Notes under the pieces: model-generated
Told to the model about the DNA's origin: nothing
The model's input: only the letters and a program-made list of their open reading frames with translations
Database searches by the model: none
Made by a program: the position numbers and the translations under genes
In this document: piece by piece, positions 31,399-60,269 of the stretch
Position numbering within the stretch: the stretch's first letter is position 1
How the letters are laid out: each line of letters begins with the position of its first letter
NCBI RefSeq assembly: GCF_900475315.1
Contig: NZ_LS483369.1
Location: forward strand, 1,674,001 to 1,738,000
Reading direction: 5' to 3'
Length of the DNA stretch: 64,000 bases
DNA from: Neisseria cinerea
GTDB taxonomy: Bacteria > Pseudomonadota > Gammaproteobacteria > Burkholderiales > Neisseriaceae

Positions 31399-31426
31399 TT
31401 GTTTGATATTTAAAAAAGGAAATATT

Positions 31427-32242: not shown

Positions 32243-32245
32243 CGT

Positions 32246-32509: not shown

Positions 32510-32512
32510 TTC

Positions 32513-33433
32513 ATGACCTTGACCGAATTACGGTACATCGTCGCAGTTGCTCAGGAACGTCACTTCGGTCGCGCTGCACGGCGTTGTTTTGTCAGTCAGC
32601 CCACTTTATCCATTGCTATTAAGAAGCTGGAAGAGGAGCTTGCTGTTTCCCTGTTTGACCGGAGTAGTAATGATATTATTACGACGGAGGCGGGGGAACG
32701 CATCGTTGCTCAGGCACGTAAAGTGCTTGAGGAGGCGGAGCTTATAAGGCATTTGGCAAATGAAGAGCAGAATGAGCTGGAGGGGGCATTCAAACTTGGA
32801 TTAATTTTCACAGTTGCTCCCTACCTGTTACCAAAGTTGATTGTTTCTCTGCGTCGTACTGCACCTAAGATGCCTCTGATGTTGGAGGAGAACTATACGC
32901 ATACGTTGACTGAATCTCTTAAGCGTGGAGATGTTGACGCAATTATCGTAGCAGAGCCGTTTCAGGAACCAGGTATCGTTACCGAACCGTTGTATGACGA
33001 ACCGTTCTTCGTCATTGTTCCCAAGGGGCATCCGTTTGAAGAGCTTGATGCTGTGTCATCTAAAATGTTGGGAGAAGAACAGGTTTTGTTGCTTACGGAA
33101 GGAAATTGTATGCGGGATCAAGTGTTGTCAAGTTGCTCCGAGTTGGCTGCCAAACAACGTATACAGGGCTTGACTAATACATTACAGGGTAGTTCGATTA
33201 ACACGATTCGCCATATGGTTGCAAGCGGTCTGGCAATCAGTGTATTACCAGCAACTGCACTGACAGAAAATGATCATATGCTTTTCAGTATCATTCCTTT
33301 TGAGGGTACTGCACCGAGCCGTCGGGTCGTGTTGGCATACCGTCGTAACTTTGTTCGTCCGAAAGCATTATCTGCAATGAAAACGGCGATTATGCAATCG
33401 AGGTTGAGCGGTGTAACGTTCCTTAGAGGGTAA
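32513..33433 (+). CDS. oxyR: Hydrogen peroxide-sensing LysR-type regulator OxyR
   Basis: The 306-residue protein has an N-terminal winged helix-turn-helix (FGRAARRCFVSQPTLSIAIK) and a LysR substrate-binding domain. Cys199 and Cys208 (TEGNCMRDQVLSSC) are at exactly the positions of the E. coli redox pair, so disulfide sensing should be intact. It controls catalase and other peroxide defences in Neisseria. Read with minCDE, it ends at a DUS-based terminator facing the adhesin locus. Confidence 0.96.
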   Translation: MTLTELRYIVAVAQERHFGRAARRCFVSQPTLSIAIKKLEEELAVSLFDRSSNDIITTEAGERIVAQARKVLEEAELIRHLANEEQNELEGAFKLGLIFTVAPYLLPKLIVSLRRTAPKMPLMLEENYTHTLTESLKRGDVDAIIVAEPFQEPGIVTEPLYDEPFFVIVPKGHPFEELDAVSSKMLGEEQVLLLTEGNCMRDQVLSSCSELAAKQRIQGLTNTLQGSSINTIRHMVASGLAISVLPATALTENDHMLFSIIPFEGTAPSRRVVLAYRRNFVRPKALSAMKTAIMQSRLSGVTFLRG

Positions 33434-39700: not shown

Positions 39701-42700
39701 TCAAATGCCTGTTTGTTGGTATCGTTCACCGTCGGCAAGTTGCTACCGATGTTTGACAAGTGCATAGGGTTGTTTGCAGTGTTGTTGTCGCCATTGTTCA
39801 TGGAGGCAATCACGTCACCGTTCGGTACTTCTGGTGCACCATCTTTCGGTTTGCCGTTTACAACATCACCGGCTTTATAGAATTTATCGCCAACTTTAAC
39901 CAGCTTGTCACCGTCCTTATTGGTATAAACCACAGGAGTTTGTGCTGCCTCAACGGTAATGGTGCGAACGCCATCGGTGCCAGTTTCGCCTGTCACTGTA
40001 ATGCCATTTTTACCCACAAAGTCTACTTGGTTTGCATTCTTCACAACATCAGTGTAACCATTGCCGTCTTTCGTTGATACCACCCAACCCATATTTTGTA
40101 GATCGCCTACTGTTGCAGCCGCATTTTTGTTTACAGGTGCTTCAGTTGTACCGACTAAATCCACTAAGTTTGGACGAGCAGCTTCCTCTGTTGGTGTACC
40201 ATTTGGATTCGTACCCACAGGTTTCACGTTCAGAGTAGAACCCACACCTGTAATCTGGGTCGGTTTGCCGTCTGAAGAGACGTTCAACGCCGTTATCGGT
40301 GTTTTGTCTGTTCCGTTGTTGCTTGCAGGTTTGGCGGCTTCGGTCGTGAAGTTAACCGGTGCTTTACCGTTTTGGGTATCACCCACTTTCACAGAAGTGA
40401 ATTCAACGTTGTCTTTGGTTGAATAGGTCACTTTACCGTTAGCTTCTTGTTTCACGGTTAAGTTTTTACCTGCCACCATTTCAACGGCTTTGCCCGGGTT
40501 GATGACTTCATCGTCGCCGGATTCTTTCTTACCGTCGGCGGTTGCAGAAGTCTTCAGCGTAAAGCCGGAGTTGTTGATCATATCCGCAACATTTTTAGCC
40601 GTAGCAACGCCTTTGTCATCTACTGCCTTATTTAATGCGGTTTCAGCATCTTTAACTTTATTCTTAGCCGCTTCTTTCTGCTCAGGTGTCGCGTCTTTAG
40701 GCAATGCAGCTAAAGCATCTTTTGCATCTTTTAATGCTTTTTGAAGCTCAGGATTAGTTGACGGCGCAATAACAGAACCGTCTTTGCTTGAAACCAGCTC
40801 GGCTGTTTTAACATCAGGCACTTCTACATCAACAGTAATAGTGCGCACGCCGTTCTCGGTTTTACCCGATACTTTGGCTGCGTTTTTACCGACGAATTTC
40901 ACTTCGTCCGCATTCTTAACTTGTTCGGAGTAAGCACCATTTCCATCTGTTGTTTTATCAGAAGATACAACCCAACCCATATTACGTAAATCGCCTACAG
41001 TAGCTGCTGTAGTATCAGGAACAGTTGGATTTCCTGCAGTTGGTTTGCTTAAGTCTACAAGACCTGCTTTTGGCGTTCCTTCTGCATAATTCGTCAAACC
41101 AGATGTAACATTTTTAACTGTTTTTCCACCATTATCTAAGCCATCTTTTGTCAAAGATACTGGTTTTTCTGATGCATTTTTTGGAGTGATTTTTATGCCA
41201 TCACTGTTGATTACAGTTTTGTCACCAGCTTGGTTTTTAAATTCAGCACTTGTTAGACCAGTTAATTCTTTTTGTAAAGAATAGATAAAGTTTTTACCAT
41301 CTTGTTTAACGGCTAAATTATCACCAGCTTTGAAAGTTACTGTATTACCTGCTTTGATCAACTCTGTAGCAGCACCAGACACAGTGCCAGAGCCATCTTT
41401 ATCTGCTGTCGCTTTCCAACCCATTTCTGTTAAGGTATTCACTAATTGATCAGCAGTAACCAATTTGCCATTTGTCGTATCCGCTGTTGGCACGCCATCA
41501 GCTCCTGTTGTAAGGGTCGCTGTTTTTGGTTTTAATGTAATCGTATCATCAGCTGCTGTTACCTCTAATAAGTTACCATCGCTAGATTTAACAGTGAACG
41601 TAATGCCATTTTCTTTATTTAACTCTTGTTTTTTAGTTTCTGTAGCGGTCTTATCACCTGTTTGGCCTTTTAATTGAATTGTATTATTCGCCAGTTTATG
41701 GAATTGACTACCGTTAATAGCATCTTTGGAATCTGCAGAAATATCTCCATCTTTTACATTCGTAACTTTTACTGGATCTGTACCATTAGGACCAGATACT
41801 TTCAGATCTCCCGCATCGGATTTACTCAATTTAGGACCTTGATCTCCACCTACTTGTACGGTATTGAATATCACATTTTCTTTCGTAGCAAACGTGAATT
41901 TACCCGCCTCTTGGGTAATCTTGATATTTTTATCCGCTTCGAAGGTTACCGTATCGCCTGCTTTAACTGGCTGTACTGTCTTACCGATATTTTCGCCGTT
42001 TGCCGTTGCGGCAGAAGTTGCATTCCAAGCAGCTGCTTTAATTGCCTCTGCCACGTTGCCTACTGTAGCGATTTTGTCTTTATCGGCATCGGCTACGGTT
42101 GGTACAGATGAGGCAGTGATGTTGCCGGTATTAACTTTTAAACCCTTGTCATCGGTTGTAAGGGTGTTGTCGGCAGCTTTTACTTTAACGCCTTCATTTG
42201 TTACTTCTAAAGACTTATCTGCTGCTTTTACCTTGATTTTATTGTCGTTGGTTTTTTCCAAACCATCGCCAAGGTTTGCACTGTATTTGATTGTGCTGGT
42301 TTTGCCGTCTGTATTTGTAGTAACAGATACACTTGTGCCGTCTCCGTCAACAAAATTAACGGTGTCATAAGCGGTAACAAAATCTTTTGCCGTACCTTTT
42401 TCTTGCAAGTTCCAGCCTGCATTCAACACATCGCCCACGGTTGCAGCGTTGTTTTTAATAGTGTCTGCATTAGCCGGTTTGTCTGCTTTAGTTGTCGGCG
42501 CAGTTGTATTTGCTTTTGCACCGTCAAGATTGCCGGCTACATTGGTAATCGGATTACCGCCGTTGTCTAAGCCGTTTTCAGTCAATGAAACGGGTTTCTT
42601 ACCTGTAGAGGTTTCCGGAGTAATGGTTACGCCTGCATTAGTCAGCTTGGTTGTCGGCGCATTTGCATCTGTGCCTTTAAACTCTGCACTGGTCAGGTTG

Positions 42701-45516
42701 GTTAATACAGGATTCAGGCTGTAGGCAAAATCGGCTTTTCTGATTTTCTTTTTAACTGTTTTGGTTTTATCAAAATCATCCGGAACATCAATTTCGCCTT
42801 CAGTTTCATCACGGTCTAATTTCAAGTTGTTGCCGACTTGGAATTGGACTTTGTCTTCCGAACGGATAGAAGTCTCATAATCGGCTTTTGTAGAGGCGGT
42901 ATTCGCTTTTTTAGATGTGAATTCGCCTGAAGATCCCGTTACCACATTACCGCTTGTGTTAAAACCTGCTGCAATTTTTTTAGTGATGGAGTTCAACTGG
43001 GAGCCGTTGATTGCATCGGTAGAGTCTTCTGCCACGCGACCGGCTGCCACGTTTTTCAATTGACGTTCTGCACCTGAGCTACCGAAGGATACGACGTCGC
43101 CTTCAGCGGTATTGGTACCGCCCGCCCATTTAAATGTGTAAGCAATCTTGTCTTTGTCGTTATCGGAAACAATATTGCCGTCGCTGTCGTAGTTCACGCT
43201 TAATTGGCGTGTACCCACCAACTCAGTTGTGGAGCCTGTACCGATTGCTACCGCATTTTGTTTAGTCGCATGTGCCCCGGTACCTAATGCCAGAGAACCG
43301 ATAGCATCAGCCCGTGCACTCGCACCGATGGCCGTTGCCAAATTTCCTTTTGATAATGCATGAACACCCAAAGAAGTTGAAGCATGGCCGTTTTTATTTT
43401 TCGCATCAGCAAAGTCAAGGGTGGATACATCCATATTGAGGCCTGTTAGTTCTTTATATGCCTGAGCGATGGTTCCTTGAGTCGTTCTTGTTTCAGCAAA
43501 AGTATAATTACGGGTAACGTCTTTACCGTTAATTTTCTCGGTTACGCTTTTAGCGGTTATGCCACCCGTTGCTTCTTCAAACTCTGTTCTTTGACCAGCA
43601 GCCGATGAAATATTCGAGCCGCCAATCATAATAGAGGAATCGCCTTGTGCATTGGTACCCAAGCCCATGGCAATTGCACCTTCATTACCTGACGCTTTTG
43701 CTCCTTGACCAACTGCGATATCAGCTTCTTTCGTTGCTTGTGCCAACTGACCGACAGCAACAGAAGAGGTTGTCGCCTTAGAACTATCGCCGACAGCTAC
43801 CGCAGATTTATCAGCATTTGCCTGATAACCTGCAGCCACCGCACTTTCTTGTGCACGGGCAGCCGTACCGGCAGCTACGGCGTAATTGCCCTGAGCTTCC
43901 GCGCCCATACCGATGGCGACTGCAGCCTCTGCATTCGCTACTACTGATGCACCGGAACCAATGGCTGTCGCACCAAAAGCACCTTTTCGAACGATGGCGT
44001 TTGTACCAATCGCCACGCCCAACGGGGTGGTAGAGTGGGCCTGCATACCGATTACGGTAGAACCATCTTGACCATAGCTGGCACGATAGGCTCTATCTAA
44101 TTCTGCGCCTACAAGCTCCTTATATTTAGCGGTAATCGTAATAGGCTGACCATTTTTTCCTGTGCCAGGCGTTGTCTCAGCATTAAAATCATTTACGCCT
44201 TTGGCATCTCCGCTATTAGGATTCGCGGCTTTAAAATATTTCTTTCCGTCATAGGCTTGAATATCATTACCACCGATAACGATAGAACCTTGACCTGCTA
44301 CGGATTGCGCACCAATGGCTACCGATTGGTCACCCATAGCACGGGTGTTACGGCCTAGTGCGGTACCTTCATTAATATCTACATTTTGGAAAGAGAAGAA
44401 TCCTTCTGAATTAGCCTTTCCTGAGTTTTGAAAATAATTTAATGTACTTGTAGTGCCGCCAAAGGCTTTGACCAATACCTTATCGTTATCATCCGCATCC
44501 GTACCAACGCCAAGAGGTTTTCCATCAGTATCCACAGAGCGATACCCTACACCCGCGCCGGCACCGAGTGCGACTGAATTGTTAACGGCAGTATTATTTT
44601 TATTAAGTCCTGTATAGGCATTCGTACCAATAGCCACGCTACCGTCATCACCCCGTAGCCCTGTACTTTTATCATCTTGTACGAAGCCATTTCTATTACT
44701 ACCCGCAGTTGCCTTTTGACCGATAGCAATACTACGTCCGCCACCTTCATCGCGGCTTTTTGCGTCCTTACCAAGAATGATATCCCCATTTTTTTTGGCA
44801 GTTGCTGAGTTACCGATTGCTATTGTATCGTCTCCAGTTGCAGCTGCTGTCGAGCCTAATGCTATGACTCCTAATTTTTCTGCTTTCGCTAAATTACCTA
44901 TAGCAATTGTATTTGTAGCAGTAGCTCTAGCCCCATATCCTAAAGCTGTAGCTCCTTCTTGATTAGCAAAAGCTGTTCCGCCGACCGCTGTGGTGTATTT
45001 ATTCGTTGAGGTTGTATTGCTCCCTAAGGCAACGCTAGATTCATTTGATGCATTTGCATTATTACCGATAGCAACAGTCTCTTTGCCTGTTGCTTTACCT
45101 TGATATCCGATTGCTACTGATTTCTCACCGGTCGCTTTAGATGTAACACCGATTGCCTCTGACAAATTCCCTGATGCTTGCGCGTCAATTCCTACTGCAA
45201 TTGCACTATCCCCTGTGGCTTGTGCTTTTCTACCTAGCGCTACTGCATTATTTCCTGAAGCATTTGACGATGCCCCCCAAGCGACACTGGTATTTTGACC
45301 TTCCCCCGCTGTATTGCCTGCTGAGGCAGCATAGACCGAATGGCTGCTTAATAGCGACAATGCGATGGCTGAGTATTTGATTACTTTTCCCGAAAAACCG
45401 TCAGCACTTTTTTGTTTATTGGATGAGCTTTGTTTTTTGTGCGCTTTGGTTAACTCGGATACCGCCACCCAAGATTGGGTTGCCTGGCTCCAAATCACGC
45501 GGAATACTTTATTCAT
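33763..45516 (-). CDS. Giant trimeric autotransporter adhesin (YadA/Hia-like), 3917 residues
   Basis: The type Vc adhesin is intact. It starts with an extended signal peptide region (MNKVFRVIWSQATQSWVAVS) and a hydrophobic segment with likely cleavage near residue 63 (SVYAAS). From about 75 to 780 are YadA-like head repeats of the form AVALGxxAxATG. A neck follows near 835 (DAINGSQLN). The rest is a long stalk of recurring modules marked by VSDVLNAGWNLQ, VGDLQNMGWVVS and VADMINASGFTLK (five each, allowing close variants), with charged helical inserts. The last ~75 residues are the YadA anchor (GSNAAASLPQVYLPGKSMVA) ending in YLW. Residues ~2273-2773 and ~2774-3274 are a tandem duplication. 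It is not NhhA by N-terminus or length; ligand unknown. AAAGGG precedes the ATG. No frameshift is seen. Confidence 0.95.
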   Translation of the reverse strand: MNKVFRVIWSQATQSWVAVSELTKAHKKQSSSNKQKSADGFSGKVIKYSAIALSLLSSHSVYAASAGNTAGEGQNTSVAWGASSNASGNNAVALGRKAQATGDSAIAVGIDAQASGNLSEAIGVTSKATGEKSVAIGYQGKATGKETVAIGNNANASNESSVALGSNTTSTNKYTTAVGGTAFANQEGATALGYGARATATNTIAIGNLAKAEKLGVIALGSTAAATGDDTIAIGNSATAKKNGDIILGKDAKSRDEGGGRSIAIGQKATAGSNRNGFVQDDKSTGLRGDDGSVAIGTNAYTGLNKNNTAVNNSVALGAGAGVGYRSVDTDGKPLGVGTDADDNDKVLVKAFGGTTSTLNYFQNSGKANSEGFFSFQNVDINEGTALGRNTRAMGDQSVAIGAQSVAGQGSIVIGGNDIQAYDGKKYFKAANPNSGDAKGVNDFNAETTPGTGKNGQPITITAKYKELVGAELDRAYRASYGQDGSTVIGMQAHSTTPLGVAIGTNAIVRKGAFGATAIGSGASVVANAEAAVAIGMGAEAQGNYAVAAGTAARAQESAVAAGYQANADKSAVAVGDSSKATTSSVAVGQLAQATKEADIAVGQGAKASGNEGAIAMGLGTNAQGDSSIMIGGSNISSAAGQRTEFEEATGGITAKSVTEKINGKDVTRNYTFAETRTTQGTIAQAYKELTGLNMDVSTLDFADAKNKNGHASTSLGVHALSKGNLATAIGASARADAIGSLALGTGAHATKQNAVAIGTGSTTELVGTRQLSVNYDSDGNIVSDNDKDKIAYTFKWAGGTNTAEGDVVSFGSSGAERQLKNVAAGRVAEDSTDAINGSQLNSITKKIAAGFNTSGNVVTGSSGEFTSKKANTASTKADYETSIRSEDKVQFQVGNNLKLDRDETEGEIDVPDDFDKTKTVKKKIRKADFAYSLNPVLTNLTSAEFKGTDANAPTTKLTNAGVTITPETSTGKKPVSLTENGLDNGGNPITNVAGNLDGAKANTTAPTTKADKPANADTIKNNAATVGDVLNAGWNLQEKGTAKDFVTAYDTVNFVDGDGTSVSVTTNTDGKTSTIKYSANLGDGLEKTNDNKIKVKAADKSLEVTNEGVKVKAADNTLTTDDKGLKVNTGNITASSVPTVADADKDKIATVGNVAEAIKAAAWNATSAATANGENIGKTVQPVKAGDTVTFEADKNIKITQEAGKFTFATKENVIFNTVQVGGDQGPKLSKSDAGDLKVSGPNGTDPVKVTNVKDGDISADSKDAINGSQFHKLANNTIQLKGQTGDKTATETKKQELNKENGITFTVKSSDGNLLEVTAADDTITLKPKTATLTTGADGVPTADTTNGKLVTADQLVNTLTEMGWKATADKDGSGTVSGAATELIKAGNTVTFKAGDNLAVKQDGKNFIYSLQKELTGLTSAEFKNQAGDKTVINSDGIKITPKNASEKPVSLTKDGLDNGGKTVKNVTSGLTNYAEGTPKAGLVDLSKPTAGNPTVPDTTAATVGDLRNMGWVVSSDKTTDGNGAYSEQVKNADEVKFVGKNAAKVSGKTENGVRTITVDVEVPDVKTAELVSSKDGSVIAPSTNPELQKALKDAKDALAALPKDATPEQKEAAKNKVKDAETALNKAVDDKGVATAKNVADMINNSGFTLKTSATADGKKESGDDEVINPGKAVEMVAGKNLTVKQEANGKVTYSTKDNVEFTSVKVGDTQNGKAPVNFTTEAAKPASNNGTDKTPITALNVSSDGKPTQITGVGSTLNVKPVGTNPNGTPTEEAARPNLVDLVGTTEAPVNKNAAATVGDLQNMGWVVSTKDGNGYTDVVKNANQVDFVGKNGITVTGETGTDGVRTITVEAAQTPVVYTNKDGDKLVKVGDKFYKAGDVVNGKPKDGAPEVPNGDVIASMNNGDNNTANNPMHLSNIGSNLPTVNDTNKQAFDPNSTTPKADKNNKSAPMTAAEAAELLNPKSDKFAGNNAATVSDVLNAGWNLQGNGQAVDFVKPFDTVNFVNGKGTTAVVETADNLTSTVKFDVDAGEITADETKPGAVKGPVTADEAKKLADDLKKAEQAVKDLPADATEDKKAEAQKALKNAQDAAAPLNKVATAQNVADMINASGFTLKTSNVDGGEKVSGDDEVINPGKAVEMIAGKNLTVKQEANGKVTYATKDDVAFNTVKLGDAKDGKAPVNMKTEAAKPATNNGADQPTTALNFTSGEGDNAKPTQLTGVGSTLNTQDIATAPQGKDNTNKPNVSLVNLVGTKDAPVNKNAAATVGDLQNMGWVVSTKDGNGYTDVVKNANQVDFKGTGLATVTGETDKDGIRTITVNVDAQKTVEAAQTPVVYTNKDGDKLVKVGDKFYKADDVENGKPKDNAQEVPNGDVIASMNNGDNKTNKPMQLANIGSNLPTVNDTNKQAFDPNSTTPKAGKDNKSAPITAKEAADIVNNAGNNAATVSDVLNAGWNLQNNGEARDFVKPYDTVNFINGKGTVAVVETADDAASSTVKFDVDAGEITSNTNGSVNGPTTAENAKKLADDLKKAEQAVKDLPADATEDKKAKAQKALKDAQAAAAPLNKVATAQNVADMINASGFTLKTSKVEGGEKDATSTGDEVINPGKAVEMIAGKNLTVKQEANGKVTYSTKDDVSFNTVNVGDNTYVDADGKPVTKNADGTYTDSKGQPIEEGKVTKLAPVAMKAEKAKPATNNGNKAEDQPTTALNVSSSDGKPTQITGVGSTLNVKPVDTNPNGKATTGDARPNLVDLVGTKDAPVNKNAAATVGDLQNMGWVVSTKDGNGYTDVVKNANQVDFKGTGLATVTGETDKDGIRTITVNVDAQKTVEAAQTPVVYTNKDGDKLVKVGDKFYKADDVENGKPKDNAQEVPNGDVIASMNNGDNKTNKPMQLANIGSNLPTVNDTNKQAFDPNSTTPKAGKDNKSAPITAKEAADIVNNAGNNAATVSDVLNAGWNLQNNGEARDFVKPYDTVNFINGKGTVAVVETADDAASSTVKFDVDAGEITSNTNGSVNGPTTAENAKKLADDLKKAEQAVKDLPADATEDKKAKAQKALKDAQAAAAPLNKVATAQNVADMINASGFTLKTSKVEGGEKDATSTGDEVINPGKAVEMIAGKNLTVKQEANGKVTYSTKDDVSFNTVNVGDNTYVDADGKPVTKNADGTYTDSKGQPIEEGKVTKLAPVAMKAEKAKPATNNGNKAEDQPTTALNVSSSDGKPTQITGVGSTLNVKPVDTNPNGKATTGDARPNLVDLVGTKDAPVNKNAAATVGDLQNMGWVVSTKDGNGYKDVVKNANQVNFKGGTGISVKGETTKDGVREITISVKDGEVIKPNQFTAKVNGTDTPVTKVGDQYYNTADIDPKTGNPKADANPVTPDTGTTPTNAGDGYVTGNKVAAAIQKSGFVVGKQKDALSAADFKDEDEKVNPDDELRFADGNNTKVKLATKESVDKDGNKVTTTTVKVDVTGLPVQYTDKNGTPVTKVGDKYFTVDDKGNPTATEVKPADLTTNMVNPAAAPNVIGAPTTLGNVKSNLPSVNDADKNAKDVAGNPIAGKDNKSAPITAKEAADIANKAGNNAATVSDVLNAGWNLQNNGEARDFVKPYDTVNFINGKGTKAVVETADNLTSTVKFDVDAGEITAETKDGKATGKVVGPVPADKKPADLLKAVADAQKAVDELAKDAAATPEAKKAAQDALKAAQDAAAPLNKVATAQNVADMINASGFTLKTSATADGKKESGNDEIINPGKAVEMVAGKNLTVTQDKNGKVTYATANDVNFNSLSLGTSQHAPTLSADEDGSLRLGSKGNQAPVRISNVAPGIKDGDAVNVSQLKGVTKDLEDKIDGVAAGSNAAASLPQVYLPGKSMVAASVGTYGSQGALAVGYSSISDNGKWLIKGQVNVNTKAKTGGGVGVGYLW
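35694..38699 (-). repeat. Tandem duplication, two 1503-bp units inside the adhesin stalk
   Basis: Unit 35694-37196 and unit 37197-38699 appear identical at every stretch I compared, and the identity continues about 29 bp further. Flanking bases diverge at once (TGCAGG versus TGTAGA on one side, TTATTT versus TTATTC on the other). 1503 is 501 codons, so the frame is kept. Each unit holds one VADMIN module, one VGDLQN module, one VSDVLN module, one helical insert and one DUS core. Confidence 0.9.
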
Positions 45517-46081: not shown

Positions 46082-49000
46082 TTACCAAAGGTAACCCATG
46101 CCTACGCCTACGCCGACATCTGCACGGCTGTTGAGGTTGGCTTGCGCTTTCCAAATCAGTTTGCCGTTGTCGCTGATGCTTGAGTAGCCGACAGCCAGGG
46201 CGTTTTGACCCTTGAACGTGCCTGCTGCTGCGGCAACCATGGATTTGCCCGGCAGGTAAACCTGCGGCAGGCTGGCTGCGGCGTTGCTGCCCGCAATACC
46301 TGCGCGGTAGTCGCGATCCATGTTGTCCACTTTGTCGCTCAGTCGGGTAACGTTGCCGCCGATGTTGTTGACGGTGTCGCCCAGTCGGTTGATGCTTTGG
46401 TTGGTCGCGTGCAGCTGGCCGCCGTTAACCGCATCTTTAGAATCTGCGCTAATGTTTCCGTCTGCGACGTTGGTAATTTTGACCGGAGTTCCGTTACTGC
46501 CGGATACTTTCAGATCGTTACCGTTGTTAGTTAATTTAGGACCGTTATCCCCACCAAGCTGTACGCTGTTGAATTGAACATCGTCTTTGGTTGCATAGGT
46601 CACTTTACCGTTCGCTTCTTGTTTCACGGTTAAGTTTTTACCTGCCACCATTTCAACAGCTTTGCCCGGGTTGATGACTTCGTCACCGGTTGATGCAGCA
46701 TCTTTCTTACCATCAGCAGTTGCTGAAGTTTTCAGCGTAAAGCCAGATGCGTTAATCATATCCGCAACGTTTTGAGCAGTTGCCACTTTGTTCAACGGAG
46801 CTGCCGCATCTTGGGCTGCTTTAAGGGCATCTTGAGCTTTTTGTTTAGCATCTTCTGTAGCAGATGGATCTTTCGCTAAATCATCTACTGCTTTTTGAGC
46901 ATCTGCTAAGTTTTTCGCTAATTCTGCCGGGGTTTTTCCTGTTGTGTTAGGACCTTTTACCGCACCAGGCTTGGTTTCATCCGCAGTAATTTCACCCGCA
47001 TCCACATCAAACTTCACGGTGCTGGTCAGGTTGTCGGCTGTTTCAACAACTGCTTTTGTGCCTTTGCCGTTGACAAAGTTTACCGTATCGTACGGTTTCA
47101 CAAAGTCGCGGGCTTCGCCGTTGTTTTGCAGATTCCAACCCGCATTCAACACGTCGGAAACGGTTGCCGCATTGTTACCGGCTTTATTGACGATATCGGC
47201 AGCTTCTTTGGCCGTAATCGGCGCAGACTTGTTGTCTTTACCGGCTTTAGGCGTTGTGCTGTTCGGGTCGAATGCCTGTTTGTTGGTATCGTTCACCGTC
47301 GGCAGGTTGCTGCCGACGTTTGCCAACTGCATAGGTTTGCTTGTGTTGTTGTCGCCATTGCTCATGGAGGCAATCACATCACCGTTCGGTACTGCTTTGG
47401 CATTTTCTTGCGGTTTGCCGTTTACAACATCACCGGCTTTATAGAATTTATCGCCGACTTTAACCAGCTTGTTACCATCCTTGTTGGTGTAAACTACCGG
47501 AGTTTGTATCGCTTCAACAGCTTTTTGTGCATCCACGTTCACAGTAATGGTGCGGATACCGTCTTTAGTTTCACCTGTAACGGTAGCCAGACCTGTGCCT
47601 TTGAACTCCACTTGGTTGGCGTTCTTCACAACGTCTTTATAACCGTTGCCTTTTTCGGTTGATACTACCCAACCCATATTTTGCAGGTCGCCTACGGTTG
47701 CAGCAGCGTTTTTGTTTACAGGTGCTTCATCTGTACCGACTAAATCCACTAAGTTTGGACGTTTAGCTTCCGCTGTCGGCGTACCGTTTGTGTTGGTATC
47801 CACAGGTTTCACGTTCAGAGTAGAACCTACACCCGTAATCTGGGTCGGTTTGCCGTCTGAAGAAGAGACATTCAGCGCAGTCGTCGGTTGATCTTCCGCT
47901 TTATTGCCGTTATTCGTTGCAGGTTTGGCTTTCTCAGCCTTCATCGCAACTGGTGCCAGCTTGGTCACTTTACCTTCTTCAATTGGCTGACCTTTAGAAT
48001 CAGTGTAAGTACCGTCTGCATTTTTGGTTACAGGCTTACCGTCTGCATCAACATAGGTATTGTCACTACCCACATTAACAGTATTGAATGACACATCGTC
48101 TTTGGTTGCATAGGTCACTTTACCGTTCGCTTCTTGTTTCACGGTTAAGTTTTTACCTGCAATCATTTCAACGGTTTTACCCGGGTTGATGATTTCATCG
48201 TCGCCGGATTCTTTCTTACCGTCGGCAGTTGCAGAAGTCTTCAGCGTAAAGCCGGATGAGTTAATCATATCCGCAACGTTTTGGGCAGTTGCCACTTTGT
48301 TCAACGGAGCTGCCGCAGCTTGGGCATCTTTCAATGCTTTTTGTGCTTCTGCTTTCTTATCTTCAGTTGCATCCGCAGGCAAATCTTTCACTGCCTGTTC
48401 AGCTTTCTTCAGATCATCAGCAAGTTTCTTCGCTTCATCTGCCGCAACAGGAGCAGCCACCGAACCGTCGGTATTTTTAGTGATTTTGGCAGTTTCAACA
48501 GATGGCGCTTCCACATCAACGGTAATAGTGCGCACGCCGTTCACGGTTTTGCCCGATACTTTGGCTGCGTTTTTGCCGACGAATTGCACTTCGTTAGCGT
48601 TTTTCACTACATCTTTATATTCGCCTGTTGCATCGGTTGCTTTATCAGATGAAACTACCCAACCCATATTTTGCAGGTCGCCTACGGTTGCAGCAGCGTT
48701 TTTGTTCACCGGTGCGGCGTCTGTACCTACTAAGTCAACCAGTTTAGGTTTGTCTGCATCGGCTGTCGGCGTACCGTTTGTGTTGGTATCCACAGGTTTC
48801 ACGTTCAGGGTAGAACCCACACCCGTAATCTGGGTCGGTTTGCCGTCTGAAGAAGAAACATTCAACGCGGTTGTCGGTTTATTTGCCGGATCGTTGTTAG
48901 AGGCATCTGTTGCTTTCTCTGTTGTGAAGTTCACCGGTTTTTTACCGTCTTTGTCTTCGCCGACTTTCACAGAAGTGAACTCAACATCGTCTTTCATCGA

Positions 49001-51412
49001 ATAGGTCACTTTACCGTTCGCTTCTTGTTTCACGGTTAAGTTTTTACCTGCCACCATTTCAACGGTTTTACCCGGGTTGATGATTTCATCACCGGTTGAT
49101 GCATCATCTTTCTTACCATCAGCAGTTGCAGAAGTTTTCAGCGTAAAGCCGGATGAGTTAATCATATCCGCAACGTTTTGGGCGTTAGCAACTTTATTGC
49201 CGCCAGCTTTATTCACTGCATCTTGTGCAGCTTCTAATGCTTTTTTCGCTTCCTCATCATCGGGATTTTCATCAACTTTTGCTTGAGCTGCATCTAATGC
49301 ATCTAACAAATCTTGAGAAACCGGACCGTTTACCGAACCATCACTTTCTGGCGTTATTTCTGCCATATCGACATTGAACGTTACGTTTGTGGTATCCACG
49401 CCGTTAGCATCACGTGTAGTTACTGCTTTAATCACGGTACCGTTACCGTTTACAAAGTTAACTACATCGTTTGGCGTTACTTTTTCGGTGTCTGATACCT
49501 TATCAGAGTCGGTTTTAGCATCTAAAGTAGACTTACCATTTTGCTGAACATAGAAACCAGATTTATTCACAGTTTGATCTAACTGATCTTTATTTACAGC
49601 TTGATCTGGTTGTGTAGCCCAGCCCACATTATTTAACTGAACACCATTTTTCCCTGCGGTAATCTCATCCTTAGATTCTGGTTTAGTTTTATCATAACCA
49701 GTGGCAGTAATATTGCCGTCCTTATCATAGGTATAGGAATTACCTTTCTCATACGGATTATTCTCCGTATCAGAGTCTGTTAATTTAGCGCCTTTCTTCA
49801 GTATTTCTGATGATGGAATTGGTGCAGCGCCCTCTTTAGGATTATTGTCTTCATCCACTTTATCTTTTGGATACCACTTACCATCATTCGCTTTAACTAC
49901 ATCAACTTCATTGCCATCTACTTCGGCTTTTGTGGTTGCGTAGTCAATAGGCGAGTCAGACGAAATGTTTATAGTGCGTACGCCATTTTCTTCATTAACG
50001 CCATCTACATCTACATTACCTAAACCAACAAAGTTAACAGTATGTCCAACTGACACATTATTCTTATAGTCATTACCAGATGCAGTAATGTTCCAACCAG
50101 CATTAACATAATTATTTAAATTAGTAAGTGCAGTCTTTACATCTCCTGCAGCAGGAGGTGCAGTATAATTGCTACCTTCAGCAACTGTTAATGGTTGTGA
50201 GAATTTATTTTTTACAGTTCCATCTTCATTCAAATCTACACCTAAGGTGTCAGCAAGCCCTTCTGCTGCATTACCTAACGTTTTTGCAACGCTATAAAGT
50301 TGAGAACCATTTAACGCATCAGTTGAGTCTGCTGTTATTCGGCCAGCGGCGACATGTTTAATTTGGCGCTCATTATCCTCTGAACCAATAGAAACAAAGT
50401 TACCTTGCTTATCGCTTGCAGCAGGTTTATTTTTCCCTTTGTTATTCGTTCCGCCCAAATCACCAGCGAAACCAGTATAAGTTAACTTTGATTGATCGCC
50501 AATTTTTGCAGAGTGTACCGCAATAACATCTGTATCCTTACCAGCATCACTGCCATGGCCTAACACAACTGCGCCATCACGACCTGCGGGCACTGTTATA
50601 TTAGAACCTAGAGTCGATACATTTTTACTTGATACATTTGTGCCACTACCAACAGCGACTGTTCCTTCTCCATTTACTTTAGTTTCTGTACCCACGCCGA
50701 TAGCATTTTTGCCTGAAACAACAGCCGCTTTACCAATTGAAGTTGATGAATGGGAATTAGCTTTAGAATTTACACCAATTGATGTTGCATAAAAACCCAA
50801 AGCTTCAGCCGTATTACCCAATGCTGTACCTTGCCACTCAGCCCTTGTACTCGTACCTACCGCTGTTGAGCCATCTCCATTTGCTTTTGCTACTTTACCT
50901 AAAGCAGTTGAATTTAATGCATCGGCAACCGAATGAGCCCCTATAGCTGTACCACCTTGACCTGTTGCTAATGAATAAGCACCTAATGCAACAGCCGCAT
51001 TCTGACCATTTGCGCCACCGGCACTTGCCTGCGCCATTAAACCAATCGCAACATGACCATTCCCACCTGTACCACTTGGCGAACCAGAAACGGCCCCATT
51101 ACCAATTGCAATACCATCATAAGCATTTACCTTTGCCCCTGCGACATTGTTACTTAAACCAGTTTCATCTTGATATCTTTTATTTCCAAAAAATTGGTTT
51201 GTTACTTTATTTGTTGCAATTGATAACTGCCCCAACTCACCTGCTTCACTTACTACATTCGCAGCCTCAACGCCACTAGCAGCAACTAAAAGTGCGGTAG
51301 AAATTGCGGCTAATTTTACAGATTTTGATTTACCTTTTACGGACGCTAATTCATCCACAGCAGTCCAAGTTTGGGTTGTATGATTCCAGATGACCTTGAA
51401 AATCTTATTCAT
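46082..51412 (-). CDS. Second trimeric autotransporter adhesin (YadA/Hia-like), 1776 residues
   Basis: Same architecture as its larger neighbour. It has an extended signal peptide region (MNKIFKVIWNHTTQTWTAVD) with likely cleavage near residue 50 (GVEAAN), head repeats at about 85-310 (AVALGAYSLATG; TSIGVNSKANS), and a neck near 355 (TDALNGSQLYSVAK). The stalk has three VADMIN-type modules and related VGDLQN and VSDVLN modules. A second neck (DAVNGGQLH) and short coiled coil precede the anchor (GSNAAASLPQVYLPG), ending YLW. The head differs from the large adhesin but several stalk blocks are nearly identical. The predicted role is outer-membrane adhesion, with ligand unknown. AAGGAC precedes the ATG, and a G11 tract lies upstream. 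Confidence 0.95.
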   Translation of the reverse strand: MNKIFKVIWNHTTQTWTAVDELASVKGKSKSVKLAAISTALLVAASGVEAANVVSEAGELGQLSIATNKVTNQFFGNKRYQDETGLSNNVAGAKVNAYDGIAIGNGAVSGSPSGTGGNGHVAIGLMAQASAGGANGQNAAVALGAYSLATGQGGTAIGAHSVADALNSTALGKVAKANGDGSTAVGTSTRAEWQGTALGNTAEALGFYATSIGVNSKANSHSSTSIGKAAVVSGKNAIGVGTETKVNGEGTVAVGSGTNVSSKNVSTLGSNITVPAGRDGAVVLGHGSDAGKDTDVIAVHSAKIGDQSKLTYTGFAGDLGGTNNKGKNKPAASDKQGNFVSIGSEDNERQIKHVAAGRITADSTDALNGSQLYSVAKTLGNAAEGLADTLGVDLNEDGTVKNKFSQPLTVAEGSNYTAPPAAGDVKTALTNLNNYVNAGWNITASGNDYKNNVSVGHTVNFVGLGNVDVDGVNEENGVRTINISSDSPIDYATTKAEVDGNEVDVVKANDGKWYPKDKVDEDNNPKEGAAPIPSSEILKKGAKLTDSDTENNPYEKGNSYTYDKDGNITATGYDKTKPESKDEITAGKNGVQLNNVGWATQPDQAVNKDQLDQTVNKSGFYVQQNGKSTLDAKTDSDKVSDTEKVTPNDVVNFVNGNGTVIKAVTTRDANGVDTTNVTFNVDMAEITPESDGSVNGPVSQDLLDALDAAQAKVDENPDDEEAKKALEAAQDAVNKAGGNKVANAQNVADMINSSGFTLKTSATADGKKDDASTGDEIINPGKTVEMVAGKNLTVKQEANGKVTYSMKDDVEFTSVKVGEDKDGKKPVNFTTEKATDASNNDPANKPTTALNVSSSDGKPTQITGVGSTLNVKPVDTNTNGTPTADADKPKLVDLVGTDAAPVNKNAAATVGDLQNMGWVVSSDKATDATGEYKDVVKNANEVQFVGKNAAKVSGKTVNGVRTITVDVEAPSVETAKITKNTDGSVAAPVAADEAKKLADDLKKAEQAVKDLPADATEDKKAEAQKALKDAQAAAAPLNKVATAQNVADMINSSGFTLKTSATADGKKESGDDEIINPGKTVEMIAGKNLTVKQEANGKVTYATKDDVSFNTVNVGSDNTYVDADGKPVTKNADGTYTDSKGQPIEEGKVTKLAPVAMKAEKAKPATNNGNKAEDQPTTALNVSSSDGKPTQITGVGSTLNVKPVDTNTNGTPTAEAKRPNLVDLVGTDEAPVNKNAAATVGDLQNMGWVVSTEKGNGYKDVVKNANQVEFKGTGLATVTGETKDGIRTITVNVDAQKAVEAIQTPVVYTNKDGNKLVKVGDKFYKAGDVVNGKPQENAKAVPNGDVIASMSNGDNNTSKPMQLANVGSNLPTVNDTNKQAFDPNSTTPKAGKDNKSAPITAKEAADIVNKAGNNAATVSDVLNAGWNLQNNGEARDFVKPYDTVNFVNGKGTKAVVETADNLTSTVKFDVDAGEITADETKPGAVKGPNTTGKTPAELAKNLADAQKAVDDLAKDPSATEDAKQKAQDALKAAQDAAAPLNKVATAQNVADMINASGFTLKTSATADGKKDAASTGDEVINPGKAVEMVAGKNLTVKQEANGKVTYATKDDVQFNSVQLGGDNGPKLTNNGNDLKVSGSNGTPVKITNVADGNISADSKDAVNGGQLHATNQSINRLGDTVNNIGGNVTRLSDKVDNMDRDYRAGIAGSNAAASLPQVYLPGKSMVAAAAGTFKGQNALAVGYSSISDNGKLIWKAQANLNSRADVGVGVGMGYLW
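47834..48048 (-). repeat. Stalk block shared almost identically with the large adhesin
   Basis: About 215 bp match 35842-36056 (and its duplicate at 37345-37559) with one difference seen (A versus G near 47889). Outside the block the genes diverge. The block begins at the DUS-containing SSDGKP codons, which suggests recombination or gene conversion. Confidence 0.75.
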
Positions 51413-51462
51413 CGTTAAAGTCCTTGTAGAGGTTAATGAATTGTCATGAAAAACCGTAATAT

Positions 51463-51488
51463 GATACTTGAAAAATATGGGGTTTACA
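51463..51488 (-). promoter_or_regulatory. Tentative promoter of the second adhesin
   Basis: On the minus strand TGTAAA, a 16-bp spacer and TATCAT lie about 50-75 bp before the start codon, just downstream of the poly-C run. The match is weak. An alternative is a promoter whose -35/-10 spacing includes the run itself (TAATTC as -10). Transcript mapping would decide. Confidence 0.3.
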
Positions 51489-51503
51489 TAGAGGGAATTA
51501 TGC

Positions 51504-51514
51504 GGGGGGGGGGG
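51504..51514 (-). repeat. Homopolymer tract (11 G; C on the coding strand) upstream of the second adhesin
   Basis: Eleven consecutive G residues on the plus strand, 92-102 bp before the adhesin start. In Neisseria, poly-G/poly-C tracts of this length in porA, opc and fetA promoters change length by slippage and alter transcription. The tract is beyond chance length for this window and at a promoter position, so phase-variable expression is a strong inference. Confidence 0.8.
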
Positions 51515-51589
51515 TTATTTTATGTAAATTTTGGAGGCTGTGCCATTGGGAGGAAGTTGATTTTTAATGATAGATGCGTTGATATGTCG

Positions 51590-51750
51590 GGTAATTCGGC
51601 TGTAAAGATTTTTTAATCATCAAGATTAACGGATTACAGGTGAGAATCTGTTTGCCGGTGTGGTTTCGGCGTTATAAAACGCCCTGTATCCGGCTGTTGC
51701 CTGATCAGCGAAGCCGTTATCTTCCGCCTAAGGTAGGCGCCTTATTTTTG
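51590..51750 (+). ncRNA. Possible small RNA ending in a terminator-like hairpin
   Basis: In the 529-bp gap between adhesin and valS the plus strand has a hairpin GGCGTT-ATAA-AACGCC (51668-51683). A second, CGCCTA-AGG-TAGGCG (51725-51739), is followed by CCTTATTTTTG. No gene lies beside it for this terminator to serve, so a small RNA is possible. The 5' end is a guess and the promoter unclear. Confidence 0.3.
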
Positions 51751-51887
51751 TCCATCTGCAATATGGTGGTTTGATTGGGTGTTCACATGCCGACCATGAT
51801 ACGGGCAAACCGCAAACCGAATAGGAAATCTGCATCAGTGCGGATGAAAGTCGGATGGTTTGATTGAATTTGACGGATTAAAAAAGA

Positions 51888-51925
51888 AAAATGCCGTCTG
51901 AAAAACATTTTTCAGACGGCATTTT
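51888..51925 (-). terminator. DUS-pair terminator of valS
   Basis: AAAATGCCGTCTGAAAAA (51888-51905) pairs perfectly with TTTTTCAGACGGCATTTT (51908-51925). On the minus strand a T-rich tail (TTTTTCTTTTTT) follows, 17 bp after the valS stop. Confidence 0.88.
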
Positions 51926-51941
51926 GTCTATTCAATCAAAA

Positions 51942-54779
51942 TCAGTCTTTCAACTTTGCCAACTGAGTTTGAACTTTCGCCATTTTGTCTTCCAATTCCG
52001 CCAAATCGGCTTTGTCTTTTTCCACCAGATGCGTGGGGGCTTTTTCGGTGTAGCCGGGTTTGGAGAGTTTGGCGTTGAGTTTGTCCAAGGCTTTTTGCAG
52101 CTTCTCGGCTTCTTTGCTCAAACGGGCGGTTTCGGCGGCTTTGTCGATTTCGACTTTCAGCATCAGGCGCGCGCCGTTGCAGACGGCGACGGGCGCGTCT
52201 TCGCTTTCGGGCAGGGCGGCGACTTGCTGCGCTTCGGTCAGGCGGGTCATCATCGGCAGGTATTTGAGGTAGTCTGCCAAGTCGTCCGCGCTTTCGACAA
52301 ACAGCGGGGCTTTGACATTAGGCTGGATGCCCATTTCGCCGCGCAGGTTGCGGACGGCGCCAATCAAATCCTGCAACACGGTCATTTGCTCGAATGCCGT
52401 CTGAACAATATCGCCGCCGTCGGCTTCGGGGAAGCGGGCGAGCATGATGCTGTCGGCGGTTTTGGCGTCGCACATGGGGGCGACGGTTTGCCACAATTCT
52501 TCGGTGATGAACGGGATAATCGGATGCAGCAGGCGCAGGGCGGCTTCGAGTACGCGCAATAAGGTATGGCGTGTGGCGCGTTGGCGGCTGGCGCAGCCGG
52601 TTTGAAGCTGCACTTTGGCAAGTTCCAGATACCAGTCGCAATAGTCGTTCCACACGAAGCTGTATAGGGTTTCCGCCGCCAAATCAAAGCGGTAGGTTTC
52701 GTAGGCTTGCGTAACCTGTTCGATGGTCTGATTCAGACGGCCTATGATCCACATATCGGGGAAGGAGTAGCCGCGCGGCTCAGTGGCGGTTGCGCCGTAG
52801 CCGCAGTCTTGGTTTTCGGTGTTCATCAAGACGAAGTTGGTGGCATTCCAGATTTTGTTGCAGAAGTTGCGGTAGCCTTCGGCGCGTTTGAAGTCGAAGT
52901 TGACCGAACGCCCCAAGCTGGCGTAGCTCGCCATGGTGAAGCGCAATGCGTCCGCGCCCATGCTGGGGATGCCTTCGGGGAAGAGTTTTTTGGTTGCTTC
53001 TTCCACTTTCGGCGCGGTTTCGGGTTTGCGCAGGCCGGTGGTGCGTTTCACCAGCAGCTTGTCCAAGTCGATGCCGTCGATCAAATCCACAGGGTCGATG
53101 ACGTTGCCTTCGGATTTGGACATTTTTTTGCCTTCGTGGTCGCGCACGATGCCGTGGATGTACACGTCTTTAAACGGTACTTTGCCGGTGAAGTGGGTGG
53201 TCATCATAATCATGCGCGCCACCCAGAAGAAGATGATTTCGTAACCTGTTACCAAGACATTGGACGGCAGGAAGGCTTTGAGTTCGTCGGTTTCAGACGG
53301 CCAGCCGAGTGTGGAAAACGGTACGAGCGCGGAGGAGAACCATGTATCCAATACGTCTTCTTCGCGGGTCAAGCCTGTTTTGCCGGCTTGTTTTTCGGCT
53401 TCTTCCTGATTGCGGGCAACGTAAACATTGCCTGCTTCGTCGTACCACGCGGGGATTTGATGCCCCCACCACAGTTGGCGCGAGATGCACCAGTCTTGGA
53501 TGTTGTTCATCCATTGGTTGTAGGTGTTGACCCAGTTTTCAGGGATAAAGTGTACCGCGCCGCTGTCGACGGCTTTTTTGGCTTTATCGGCAAGGCTTAA
53601 GCCTTTGAACTCGCTGTCAGGCTCGCCGCCGTTTGGCGTGGCGGACATGGCGACAAACCATTGGCTGGTCAGCATCGGCTCAATCACTGAGCCGGTTCGG
53701 TCGCCTTTCGGCGTCATCAGCGTGTGCGGTTTGATTTCGACCAAGAAGCCTTGTTCCTGTAAATCGGCAACCATTTGTTTGCGCGCGGCAAAGCGGTCCA
53801 AGCCTGCGTATTTTTCAGGCAGGGCAAAGCCTGGTTGCGCTTCGCCTTTGAAGTTGAACACTTCGGCGTTTGCCAACACTTTGGCTTCCAAATCGAACAC
53901 ATTAATCAGGCGCGTGTCGTGGCGTTTGCCGACTTCGTAGTCGTTGAAGTCGTGCGCAGGCGTGATTTTCACGCAGCCGGTGCCGAAGTCTTTTTCAACG
54001 TATTCGTCGGCAATCACGGGGATGGTGCGGCCGGTCAGCGGCAGGATTAATTCTTTGCCGATTAAGTGGGTGTAACGTTCGTCTTCAGGATTGACGGCTA
54101 CGGCCACGTCGCCCAGCAGCGTTTCGGGACGGGTGGTCGCCACGATAACGGCTTCGGCGGGATTATCCGCCAGCGGATAGCGGATGTGCCACATAGAGCC
54201 TTGTTCTTCCACGCTTTCCACTTCCAAATCCGATACCGCCGTACCCAAAACCGGATCCCAGTTTACCAAGCGTTTGCCGCGATAAATCAAGCCCTGTTCA
54301 TACAGGCGTACGAACACTTCGGTCACGGTTTCGGCGCGCACGTCGTCCATCGTGAAATACTCGCGCGTCCAGTCGGCAGAGCAGCCCACGCGGCGCATTT
54401 GTTGGGTAATCGTACCGCCGGAAACTTCTTTCCATTCCCATACTTTTTCCAAGAATTTTTCGCGCCCCAAGTCATGACGGGACACATTTTGCGCGGCAAG
54501 CTGACGCTCGACCACGATTTGCGTGGCGATGCCCGCGTGGTCGGTGCCTGGAATCCAGGCGGTGTTGCAGCCTTTCATGCGGTAGTAGCGGGTCAGGCCG
54601 TCCATAATGGTTTGGTTGAAGGCATGACCCATGTGCAGCGTGCCGGTTACGTTGGGCGGCGGTAGTTGGATGGAGAAAGACGGTTTCGTCAAATCCATAT
54701 CGGGCTGGAAATAGCCTTGGCTTTCCCAGTTTTGATAGTGTTTGGATTCGATTTCGGCGGGGGAGTATTTGTCTAACAT
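51942..54779 (-). CDS. valS: Valyl-tRNA synthetase
   Basis: The 945-residue class I synthetase charges tRNA-Val. The HIGH-type motif is HMGH at residues 49-52 ([12 protein letters not shown]) and KMSKS is near residue 551 ([10 protein letters not shown]). The editing domain lies between, and the C-terminal coiled-coil arm is rich in Lys, Glu and Leu. The start ATG 54779 ([12 protein letters not shown]) has AGGG upstream. The frame is open 30 codons further but that part contains a DUS and is non-coding. Two DUS copies lie inside the gene (52394-52405 and 52732-52743), plus a 10-mer core at 53292-53301. Confidence 0.97.
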
Positions 54780-54828
54780 ATGAAGCCCTGAGAAATAAGA
54801 TGATTTGATGGTTTGAATTATAGCGCAA

Positions 54829-54866
54829 ATGCCGTCTGAAACGCTTTTGGAGGTTTCAGACGGCAT
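54829..54866. repeat. Inverted DUS pair between lpxA and valS
   Basis: ATGCCGTCTGAAAC (54829-54842) pairs with GTTTCAGACGGCAT (54853-54866), just after the lpxA stop. It may end the long envelope operon. A TATAAT on the minus strand (54817-54822) next to it could be the -10 of valS. Confidence 0.75.
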
Positions 54867-54878
54867 CAAAAGGGTACG

Positions 54879-57851: not shown

Positions 57852-60230
57852 TTAGAACGTCGTACCGAGTTGAAATTGGAAGCGTTGGATTTCGTCTTCC
57901 GTTTTTTTCTTCAGCGGGTAGGCGTAGCTGAATTTCATCGGGCCCAAAGGCGAGAGCCAGGTTACGGCACCGCCGGCGGAATAGCGCAATTCGTTGGAGA
58001 AGGTGGATTTATGCGCGTTTTCCAGGTAAACCGATTTGTTGTTGCCGCTTTCGGCGGCGGTATAGGTTTTGTCGTCCCACACGCTGCCTGCATCGGCAAA
58101 CAGGCTCAGGCGGACGGTGCGTGCGTCTTTCGCACCCGGCATCGGGAAGAGCAGTTCGGCGGAGACGTTGGCTTTTTTGTTGCCGCCGTAGCTGATCTTG
58201 TCGCCGTATTCGTCATAGACTTTCGGACCGAGCGTGCCGCTTTCGTAACCTCGTACCGAACCCAGGCCGCCGCCGTAGAAGTTTTCAAAGAAGGGGATTT
58301 CTTTGGTTTTGCCGTAGCCGTTGGCATAGCCGATTTCTCCGCCAAGCATCAGTGTGAAGGTTTTGCTCAGGGGGAAGAACCAGGTTTGGTTGTGTGTGGC
58401 GGAGTAGTATTGCAGTTTGCTGCCGGGCAGGGCGATTTCGGCATTGACGCCTGCCAGGTAGCCGCGTGTCGGCCACAGGGCATTGTCGGTCTTGTTGCGT
58501 CCCCAGCCGACGGTACCTTTGTACAGCCAGCCTTTGAAGCTGCCGTCTGCGCCGTTGGTTTTGCCGTATTTCTTGATGAAGTCGGCATAGCGTTTGGGCG
58601 CTTTGTTGTAGGTGTTGACGGTCAGGTGTTCTGCCGCCAAACCGAAATTTACACGGTCGTATTCGGTAACGGGGATACCCATCCTTACGCCGCCGCCGGC
58701 GGTGGTGGTTTTATATTGTTTGACGCTGGTCGATGCTTTGCGCGGGTCGAAGGCTTTTCCGTAAATATCGTAGCCCAGGCTGACCCCGTCTGCCGTGAAG
58801 TACGGGTCGGTAAACGACAGCGAGCCGTTAAGCGTGGTTTTGCTCCTAGAGGCGCGCAGGGCGGCCGACTTGCCCGTACCGAACAGGTTGTCTTGGGAAA
58901 CGCCTGCGGACATGACCAACCCGGTATCTTGAACCCAACCCGCGCTCAAATCCAGGGAACCGGTGGAACGTTCGGTCAGGCTCATGTTCAAATCGACTTT
59001 GTCGGGCGTGTTGGCAAGCGGGACGGTGTCAAACTGGACATTGTCGAAGTAGCCTAAAAGCTCGACACGCTCTTTGGAGCGTTGCAGCTTGGAAGTGTCG
59101 TAAGGCGCGGATTCCATTTGGCGCAATTCGCGGCGCACGACTTCGTCGCGGGTTTTGTTGTTGCCTGTGATATGGATTTCGTTGACGTAGATTTTCCGGC
59201 CGGGTTCGATGTGCAGTATGAAGTCGACGGTTTTTGTTTCCGCATTGGGCAGCGGTTGGACGCTGATTTCGCTGTAGGCGTAGCCTGCGGAACCCATACG
59301 GTTTTGGATGGAGCTCAAAACTTCGGTCATTTGTTGGCGTTCGTACCATTTGCCGGGTTTCATGGTCAGCAGCTTTTCCAATTCGGCTTTGGGTACTTCG
59401 TTGGTATCGCCTTCAATGGAGACTTTGCCCCAGCGGAAACGTTCGCCTTCGTGGACGGTGATTTTGATGGTCTGCTTGGTTTTGTCTTCGTTGGTTTGGA
59501 TGTCGGTATCGAGGATACGGAAGTCGAAATAGCCGTTGTTTTGGTAGAAATCGGTTATTTTCTCCATATCTTGGGTGAATTTCTGACTGTTGAACTGGTT
59601 GCTCCTGGTCAGCCACGTCCAAATGCCGGCTTCGGTCAGGGACATTTGCCGCATCAGTTTGCGGTCGGAATAGACTTGGTTGCCTTCAAATTCGATGTCG
59701 GTGATTTTGGCGGATTGCCCCTCGTCAATCGTGATGTCTATGGAGACACGGTTGCGTGAGAGTTTGGTAACTTTGGGGGTAATTTGAATGTTGAGTTTGC
59801 CGCGTCCGAGATATTCTTCTTTCAGTCCGGCGACTGCCTGGTTGAGTGTCGCCTGGTTGAAGTATTGCGACTGCGCCAGTCCGAACGACTCGAGATTTTT
59901 TTTGATGACGTCGTTTTGCAGGATTTTCGCACCGCTGATATTGAGCGATCCGATAGTGGGACGTTCGATGACGGTCAGCAGGAGTTGTCCGTCCGCGGAT
60001 TCAACGCGTACATCGTCGAAGAACCCGGTCGCGTACAGGCTTTTGATGATTTCCCCGCCGCGGCCGTCGTTGTAGGCATCGCCGATTTTTACGGGCAGGT
60101 AGTTGAATACGGTACTCGGTTCGGTACGCTGCAAGCCTTCGATACGGATGTCTTGGATGGTAAAGTCGGCAAATGCCAAAGGCGATATGCCCAAGACCAT
60201 CAGTGCGGAAGCAATCTGTTTCAGTTTCAT
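57852..60230 (-). CDS. bamA: Outer membrane assembly factor BamA (Omp85)
   Basis: The 792-residue protein folds beta-barrel proteins into the outer membrane. It has a signal peptide (MKLKQIASALMVLGISPLAFA), five POTRA domains from about 22 to 420 (starting FTIQDIRIEGLQ), and a 16-strand barrel. The conserved L6 motif is VRGY (GSVRGYESG) and the C-terminal strand ends in Phe (QLGTTF). ATG 60230 was chosen. The frame opens 13 codons earlier but that part contains a DUS, and AAGGAA precedes the chosen start. It should insert both adhesins. Confidence 0.97.
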   Translation of the reverse strand: MKLKQIASALMVLGISPLAFADFTIQDIRIEGLQRTEPSTVFNYLPVKIGDAYNDGRGGEIIKSLYATGFFDDVRVESADGQLLLTVIERPTIGSLNISGAKILQNDVIKKNLESFGLAQSQYFNQATLNQAVAGLKEEYLGRGKLNIQITPKVTKLSRNRVSIDITIDEGQSAKITDIEFEGNQVYSDRKLMRQMSLTEAGIWTWLTRSNQFNSQKFTQDMEKITDFYQNNGYFDFRILDTDIQTNEDKTKQTIKITVHEGERFRWGKVSIEGDTNEVPKAELEKLLTMKPGKWYERQQMTEVLSSIQNRMGSAGYAYSEISVQPLPNAETKTVDFILHIEPGRKIYVNEIHITGNNKTRDEVVRRELRQMESAPYDTSKLQRSKERVELLGYFDNVQFDTVPLANTPDKVDLNMSLTERSTGSLDLSAGWVQDTGLVMSAGVSQDNLFGTGKSAALRASRSKTTLNGSLSFTDPYFTADGVSLGYDIYGKAFDPRKASTSVKQYKTTTAGGGVRMGIPVTEYDRVNFGLAAEHLTVNTYNKAPKRYADFIKKYGKTNGADGSFKGWLYKGTVGWGRNKTDNALWPTRGYLAGVNAEIALPGSKLQYYSATHNQTWFFPLSKTFTLMLGGEIGYANGYGKTKEIPFFENFYGGGLGSVRGYESGTLGPKVYDEYGDKISYGGNKKANVSAELLFPMPGAKDARTVRLSLFADAGSVWDDKTYTAAESGNNKSVYLENAHKSTFSNELRYSAGGAVTWLSPLGPMKFSYAYPLKKKTEDEIQRFQFQLGTTF

Positions 60231-60257
60231 CATAAGTTCCTTGTGGTGCGTTATGCT

Positions 60258-60269
60258 TTCAGACGGCAT
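60258..60269 (-). repeat. Single DUS between rseP and bamA
   Basis: TTCAGACGGCAT in the 54-bp gap, without a partner. Confidence 0.9.

Follow-up and report, generated by a model that had tools for sequence, protein, structure and literature searches.

The window, the whole 64,000-nucleotide stretch of the Neisseria cinerea genome analysed here, carries on its minus strand a gene for a trimeric autotransporter adhesin downstream of a valine-tRNA ligase gene, with two further elements in and next to the intergenic region:

46082..51412, minus strand: trimeric autotransporter adhesin gene, 1,776 aa, uninterrupted (ORF and Pfam)
51421..51425, minus strand: ribosome-binding-site-like AAGGA, 8 nt before the ATG (read by eye)
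51888..51925, minus strand: terminator-like hairpin of 17 pairs with a T-rich tail, between the valine-tRNA ligase gene and the adhesin promoter
51942..54869, minus strand: valine-tRNA ligase gene, upstream of the adhesin (Pfam tRNA-synt_1, Anticodon_1, Val_tRNA-synt_C)

The predicted adhesin comprises an ESPR signal peptide, a YadA head, a Trp-ring, a stalk, and a YadA anchor (PF13018, PF05658, PF18669, PF05662, and PF03895, all of which exceed their Pfam cut-offs). Judged by these domains, with ESPR, head/stalk, and a C-terminal YadA anchor, it is a type Vc trimeric autotransporter. Because the valine-tRNA ligase gene upstream ends in a terminator-like hairpin, the adhesin gene probably has its own promoter; three terminator-like sites were found within 51200-52000, compared to 0.7 in shuffles.

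The window also encodes a larger adhesin of 3,917 aa on the minus strand (33763-45516; locus L158). The 3,917-aa and 1,776-aa adhesins have stretches in common at 83-89% identity and others at 44-68%, a pattern suggestive of sequence exchange or duplication involving both genes. Elsewhere in the window, a prophage at 16-33 kb was considered and dropped; scanning 30652-33433 gave matches to MinC, a ParA/MinD-type ATPase, and a LysR regulator, and the ORF sizes across 16-33 kb presumably resemble those of ribosomal-protein operons. No Rfam family scored above its gathering score anywhere in the window.

The first-pass annotation had described a run of 11 G at 92-102 bp before the adhesin start codon, close to the likely promoter. 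Reading the sequence directly, we confirmed both the coordinates and the distance: the G11 run on the plus strand occupies exactly 51504-51514, reads as C11 on the coding strand, and lies 92-102 bp upstream of the ATG (51412). The tract and the promoter-like elements around it are as follows, in coding-strand order of the preferred pair, with two rival -10 elements listed last:

51523..51528, minus strand: -35-like hexamer TTTACA, 5/6 to TTGACA, 8 nt upstream of the tract
51504..51514, minus strand: C11 homopolymer, the proposed slippage tract (from the sequence; G11 on the plus strand)
51497..51502, minus strand: -10-like hexamer CATAAT, 5/6 to TATAAT, 1 nt downstream of the tract
51517..51522, minus strand: rival -10 TAAAAT, with ATGGCA at 51541-51546 and a spacer of 18 (promoter scan, hexamer scoring)
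51461..51466, minus strand: rival -10 TATCAT (TATAAT in N. bergeri), downstream of the tract and without a good -35

The tract precedes an intact gene, a 1,776-aa ORF with ESPR and a YadA anchor, whose product is predicted from these domains to be located at the surface. This genome has few long G/C runs. The window contains 82 runs of length 4, 14 of length 5, one of length 6, none of lengths 7-10, and one of length 11; across the genome, a single contig of 1,832,904 bp, the run at 51504-51514 is the sole one of at least nine bases. Under independent bases, we would expect about 10.5 runs of at least nine and about 0.7 of at least 11 in the whole genome, so tract length alone is not decisive, and a single 11-base run could in principle arise by chance. 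Position, rather than length, is the stronger argument for the tract, and it makes chance an unlikely explanation. The length of 11 is that given by the assembly, and homopolymers may be miscounted in sequencing.

On the coding strand, the order of elements is TTTACA-8-C11-1-CATAAT, with a spacer of 20 bp. Thus, the tract is not simply close to the likely promoter, as had been noted before, but falls inside the spacer of a -35/-10-like pair, the arrangement of porA/fetA/opc-type promoters. TTTACA/CATAAT is also the top-scoring hexamer pair in the 200 bp upstream of the gene at spacings of 15-21 (10/12; the next pairs score 9, then 8). With an imagined 11-nt tract, a comparable fit (5/6 in both hexamers, A at position 2 and T at position 6 of the -10, spacing 15-21) occurred by chance at 96 of 127,800 window positions on both strands and in 15 of 5,000 shuffles of the real flanks, figures that overstate the rarity of the placement because the hexamer thresholds and the spacing range were set after the site was seen.

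A perfect 8-bp inverted repeat (TTTACATA/TATGTAAA, 51483-51490 and 51521-51528) flanks the tract and the likely promoter. It is absent from the orthologous sequence of N. bergeri (G005), and since that species does not keep it, we assign it no role.

The DNA at 51413-51880 matches seven of 46 Neisseria genomes, the N. cinerea genome counted. Among the other genomes, only G005 matches the promoter part, with 85% over the whole stretch, while the remaining five matching genomes align only over the portion on the valine-tRNA ligase side. Of the genomes compared, G005 is the nearest over 57852-60269 (94%; next 91, 90, 90, and 89%), and we infer that it is N. bergeri. In its ortholog, both hexamers are identical and the flanks are similar, while the tract is C7 and the spacing is 16 bp versus 20 in the window; two other hexamer pairs in the G005 upstream region tie with TTTACA/CATAAT at 10/12. 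The gene that follows (L043, G005:C13) looks like a relic: the reading frame of its ESPR signal peptide is closed by a TGA after 44 codons, beyond which a short stretch in another frame resembles the anchor end (by eye). Because such a relic is perhaps no longer under selection, C7 may reflect decay instead of a working switch, and the difference in tract length between the species, C11 in N. cinerea and C7 at the relic-like locus, is a comparison of one genome per species.

At the level of the family, the flank-and-tract pattern was found in two of 83 genomes. It had no match among viral contigs, the plasmid records had no match to 51300-51900, and a protein search of the viral contigs with the adhesin's first 350 codons matched eight stretches, none of them a relative, in collections that may omit viral and plasmid records of this or very near genomes. 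No second isolate came out of these searches.

The tract could be neutral, present by chance or descent and controlling nothing, or its length could be a sequencing artefact. The base-composition expectation of about 0.7 runs of at least 11 in a genome of this size and the relic-like state of the relative's gene are both compatible with this. However, the genome has no second G/C run of nine or more, and few positions would by chance put a tract between two such good hexamers, with the reservation that those thresholds were post hoc. We consider a neutral tract very improbable.

A generic promoter scan of the region returned two sites versus 2.4 in shuffles; it allowed only spacings of 16-18 and so could not list TTTACA-20-CATAAT, and one of its two sites was ATGGCA-18-TAAAAT. 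This promoter would have its -10 ending 2 nt before the tract, placing the tract at the transcript start, and slippage would then change the initially transcribed sequence or the 5' leader. Repeats in 5' leaders are mentioned in PMC2791445. UspA1 of Moraxella is one gene with such a repeat. ATGGCA-18-TAAAAT scores 9/12 in the window and its N. bergeri counterpart (CTGACA-18-TAAAAT) 10/12, with a normal 18-bp spacer. However, the hexamer score in the window is below that of the best pair, and the -35 differs between both species, whereas TTTACA and CATAAT are identical. Altogether, we regard a tract at the transcript start as unlikely.

The promoter could also lie downstream of the tract, with TATCAT at -54, in which case the length of the tract just upstream could affect contacts of RNA polymerase or a regulator, as has been proposed for the distal nadA repeat. 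NadA is a trimeric autotransporter, and nadA of N. meningitidis resembles the gene described here in being an adhesin gene with a repeat near its promoter; it undergoes transcriptional phase variation through that repeat, as is proposed here. For nadA, TAAA repeats located upstream of the promoter are described, together with NadR and IHF (PMC2791445), which is a precedent for a tract that acts from there; here, in contrast, the homopolymer is inside the likely promoter. TATCAT matches at 5/6 in the window, and the N. bergeri counterpart TATAAT at 6/6 with a 4/6 -35 at 19 bp, but the best -35 for TATCAT in the window, at 16-17 bp, reaches only 3/6, or 8/12 overall. A downstream promoter thus seems to us quite unlikely, and a nadA-type distal repeat switch, with a repeat upstream of the core promoter and regulator sites on both sides, would require transcription from the TATCAT promoter. 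Under all three promoter readings, the tract would adjoin or lie within the promoter.

Genes with the same signal peptide were compared across the 46 Neisseria genomes, which yielded 111 ESPR matches. We read 110 upstream regions (the excluded match begins at the first base of its contig), of which six were <450 bp long and two belonged to ESPR matches not starting at Met. A G/C run of at least seven bases was present in 12 of the 110 and one of at least nine in seven, and strict spacer geometry around a run of at least seven was found in just two, the window gene and its N. bergeri ortholog. Two more, L069 and L197, had a loose form of the geometry at 14 bp. No G/C run of at least seven occurs in the 450 bp upstream of the window's large adhesin, in agreement with the first-pass annotation, which had contrasted the two adhesins in this respect; the third ESPR gene of the genome has no such run upstream either.

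Poly-C tracts also stand upstream of ESPR adhesins in close relatives. Presumptive N. bergeri has a C14 (L140), with a T12 further up, and presumptive N. viridiae a C21 (L141), each before a large ESPR adhesin; unlike the window tract, these start 193-200 bp before the ATG, outside the spacer geometry. In presumptive N. polysaccharea, the matching contig starts just past the expected poly-C tract site. Repeats of other kinds turned up in the same survey: 33 tandem TGCC copies lie ~336 bp before an ESPR gene at L063 (G038), and nine tandem TTAAC copies ~124 bp before an ESPR gene start at L144 (G017), the latter a possible candidate for another transcriptional switch.

We then compared G/C tracts genome-wide across the genus. 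A nine-base G/C pattern gave 0 to 131 matches in each of the 46 Neisseria genomes and three in the N. cinerea genome, which also has no four-fold CTCTT repeat and no five-fold AGCC repeat. The five nearest genomes have many more (61 in G005, 42 in G014, 32 in G022, 26 in G019, and 131 in G039), while several more distant genomes also have low counts of 0-4 (none in G036 and G037; one each in G013, G024, and G035), and the scarcity of G/C tracts is not unique to this genome within the genus. It is conceivable, and we put it forward tentatively, that G/C-tract surface switching has here been reduced to one adhesin promoter locus, unlike in the five nearest relatives.

The closest likeness is to porA, fetA, and opc of pathogenic Neisseria, surface-protein genes with a G/C homopolymer between the -35 and the -10. 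This placement is described for all three tracts (PMC2791445) and likewise for fetA (PMC5320596). The earlier suggestion of phase variation of the porA/opc/fetA type gains support from the position of the tract in the putative spacer, its uniqueness in the genome, and the C7 ortholog, and further from the published -10/-35 placement. The gene here differs from porA, fetA, and opc in coding for a trimeric autotransporter adhesin, and its switching is a prediction. In a mutS background of N. meningitidis, opc variants with C12 are reported to be expressed more than the C11 parent (PMC3447861), so the active tract length is promoter-specific and does not transfer from one promoter to another.

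An adhesin gene of a commensal Neisseria with a C tract outside the coding region is also on record: for NLA_12310 of N. lactamica 020-06, Table 3 of PMC5953494 gives an intergenic C9-10 tract whose variation is supported by alignments. NLA_12310 is very large (11,184 bp; PMC3091772 Table 2) and is compared here by tract and gene description. Its neighbour is a TonB-dependent receptor; at the adhesin L079 of presumptive N. viridiae, considered as a possible NLA_12310-like gene, the two downstream ORFs that we scanned are gyrase A and a transposase, and the upstream side is off the contig. During N. lactamica carriage, the recurring contingency loci reported in PMC6232127 all had G/C tracts, and the same report describes a large ESPR/YadA-type protein without a G/C tract that was mutated in several volunteers, some of these mutations cutting the predicted size by 84-93%. 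Our literature search, which had most subscription journals outside its reach, turned up no paper that we recognised as describing the present adhesin locus. The mechanism is already well known and an N. lactamica adhesin with intergenic C9-10 is in print; the locus described here is a new case.

Taken together, we think it likely that the C11 tract is the spacer of a phase-variable adhesin promoter of the porA/fetA/opc type, in which slippage would switch transcription. Sigma-70 RNA polymerase would bind TTTACA and CATAAT, at a distance equal to the tract length plus nine. Replication slippage would alter the tract by one or more C, shifting the boxes apart or together, and these shifts in spacing would make adhesin transcription vary randomly and reversibly from one sister cell to another. 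The usual spacer of promoters is 16-18 bp. The 20-bp spacer exceeds this, which speaks against the proposed promoter; if the promoter is used, we predict low or no transcription from it in the sequenced line, with its C11, and more from shorter natural tracts. Such switching would not extend to the larger adhesin, whose gene lacks a tract. We infer promoter use, slippage, and the effect on expression from the DNA sequence.

If the tract works as proposed, the group of surface genes whose promoter tracts resemble those of porA, fetA, and opc would gain a trimeric autotransporter adhesin. According to the account of Wanford et al., commensals other than N. lactamica are without a core phasome (PMC5953494), and for this reason a genome in which one well-placed G/C tract stands alone may be a simple system for studying a single switch in isolation.
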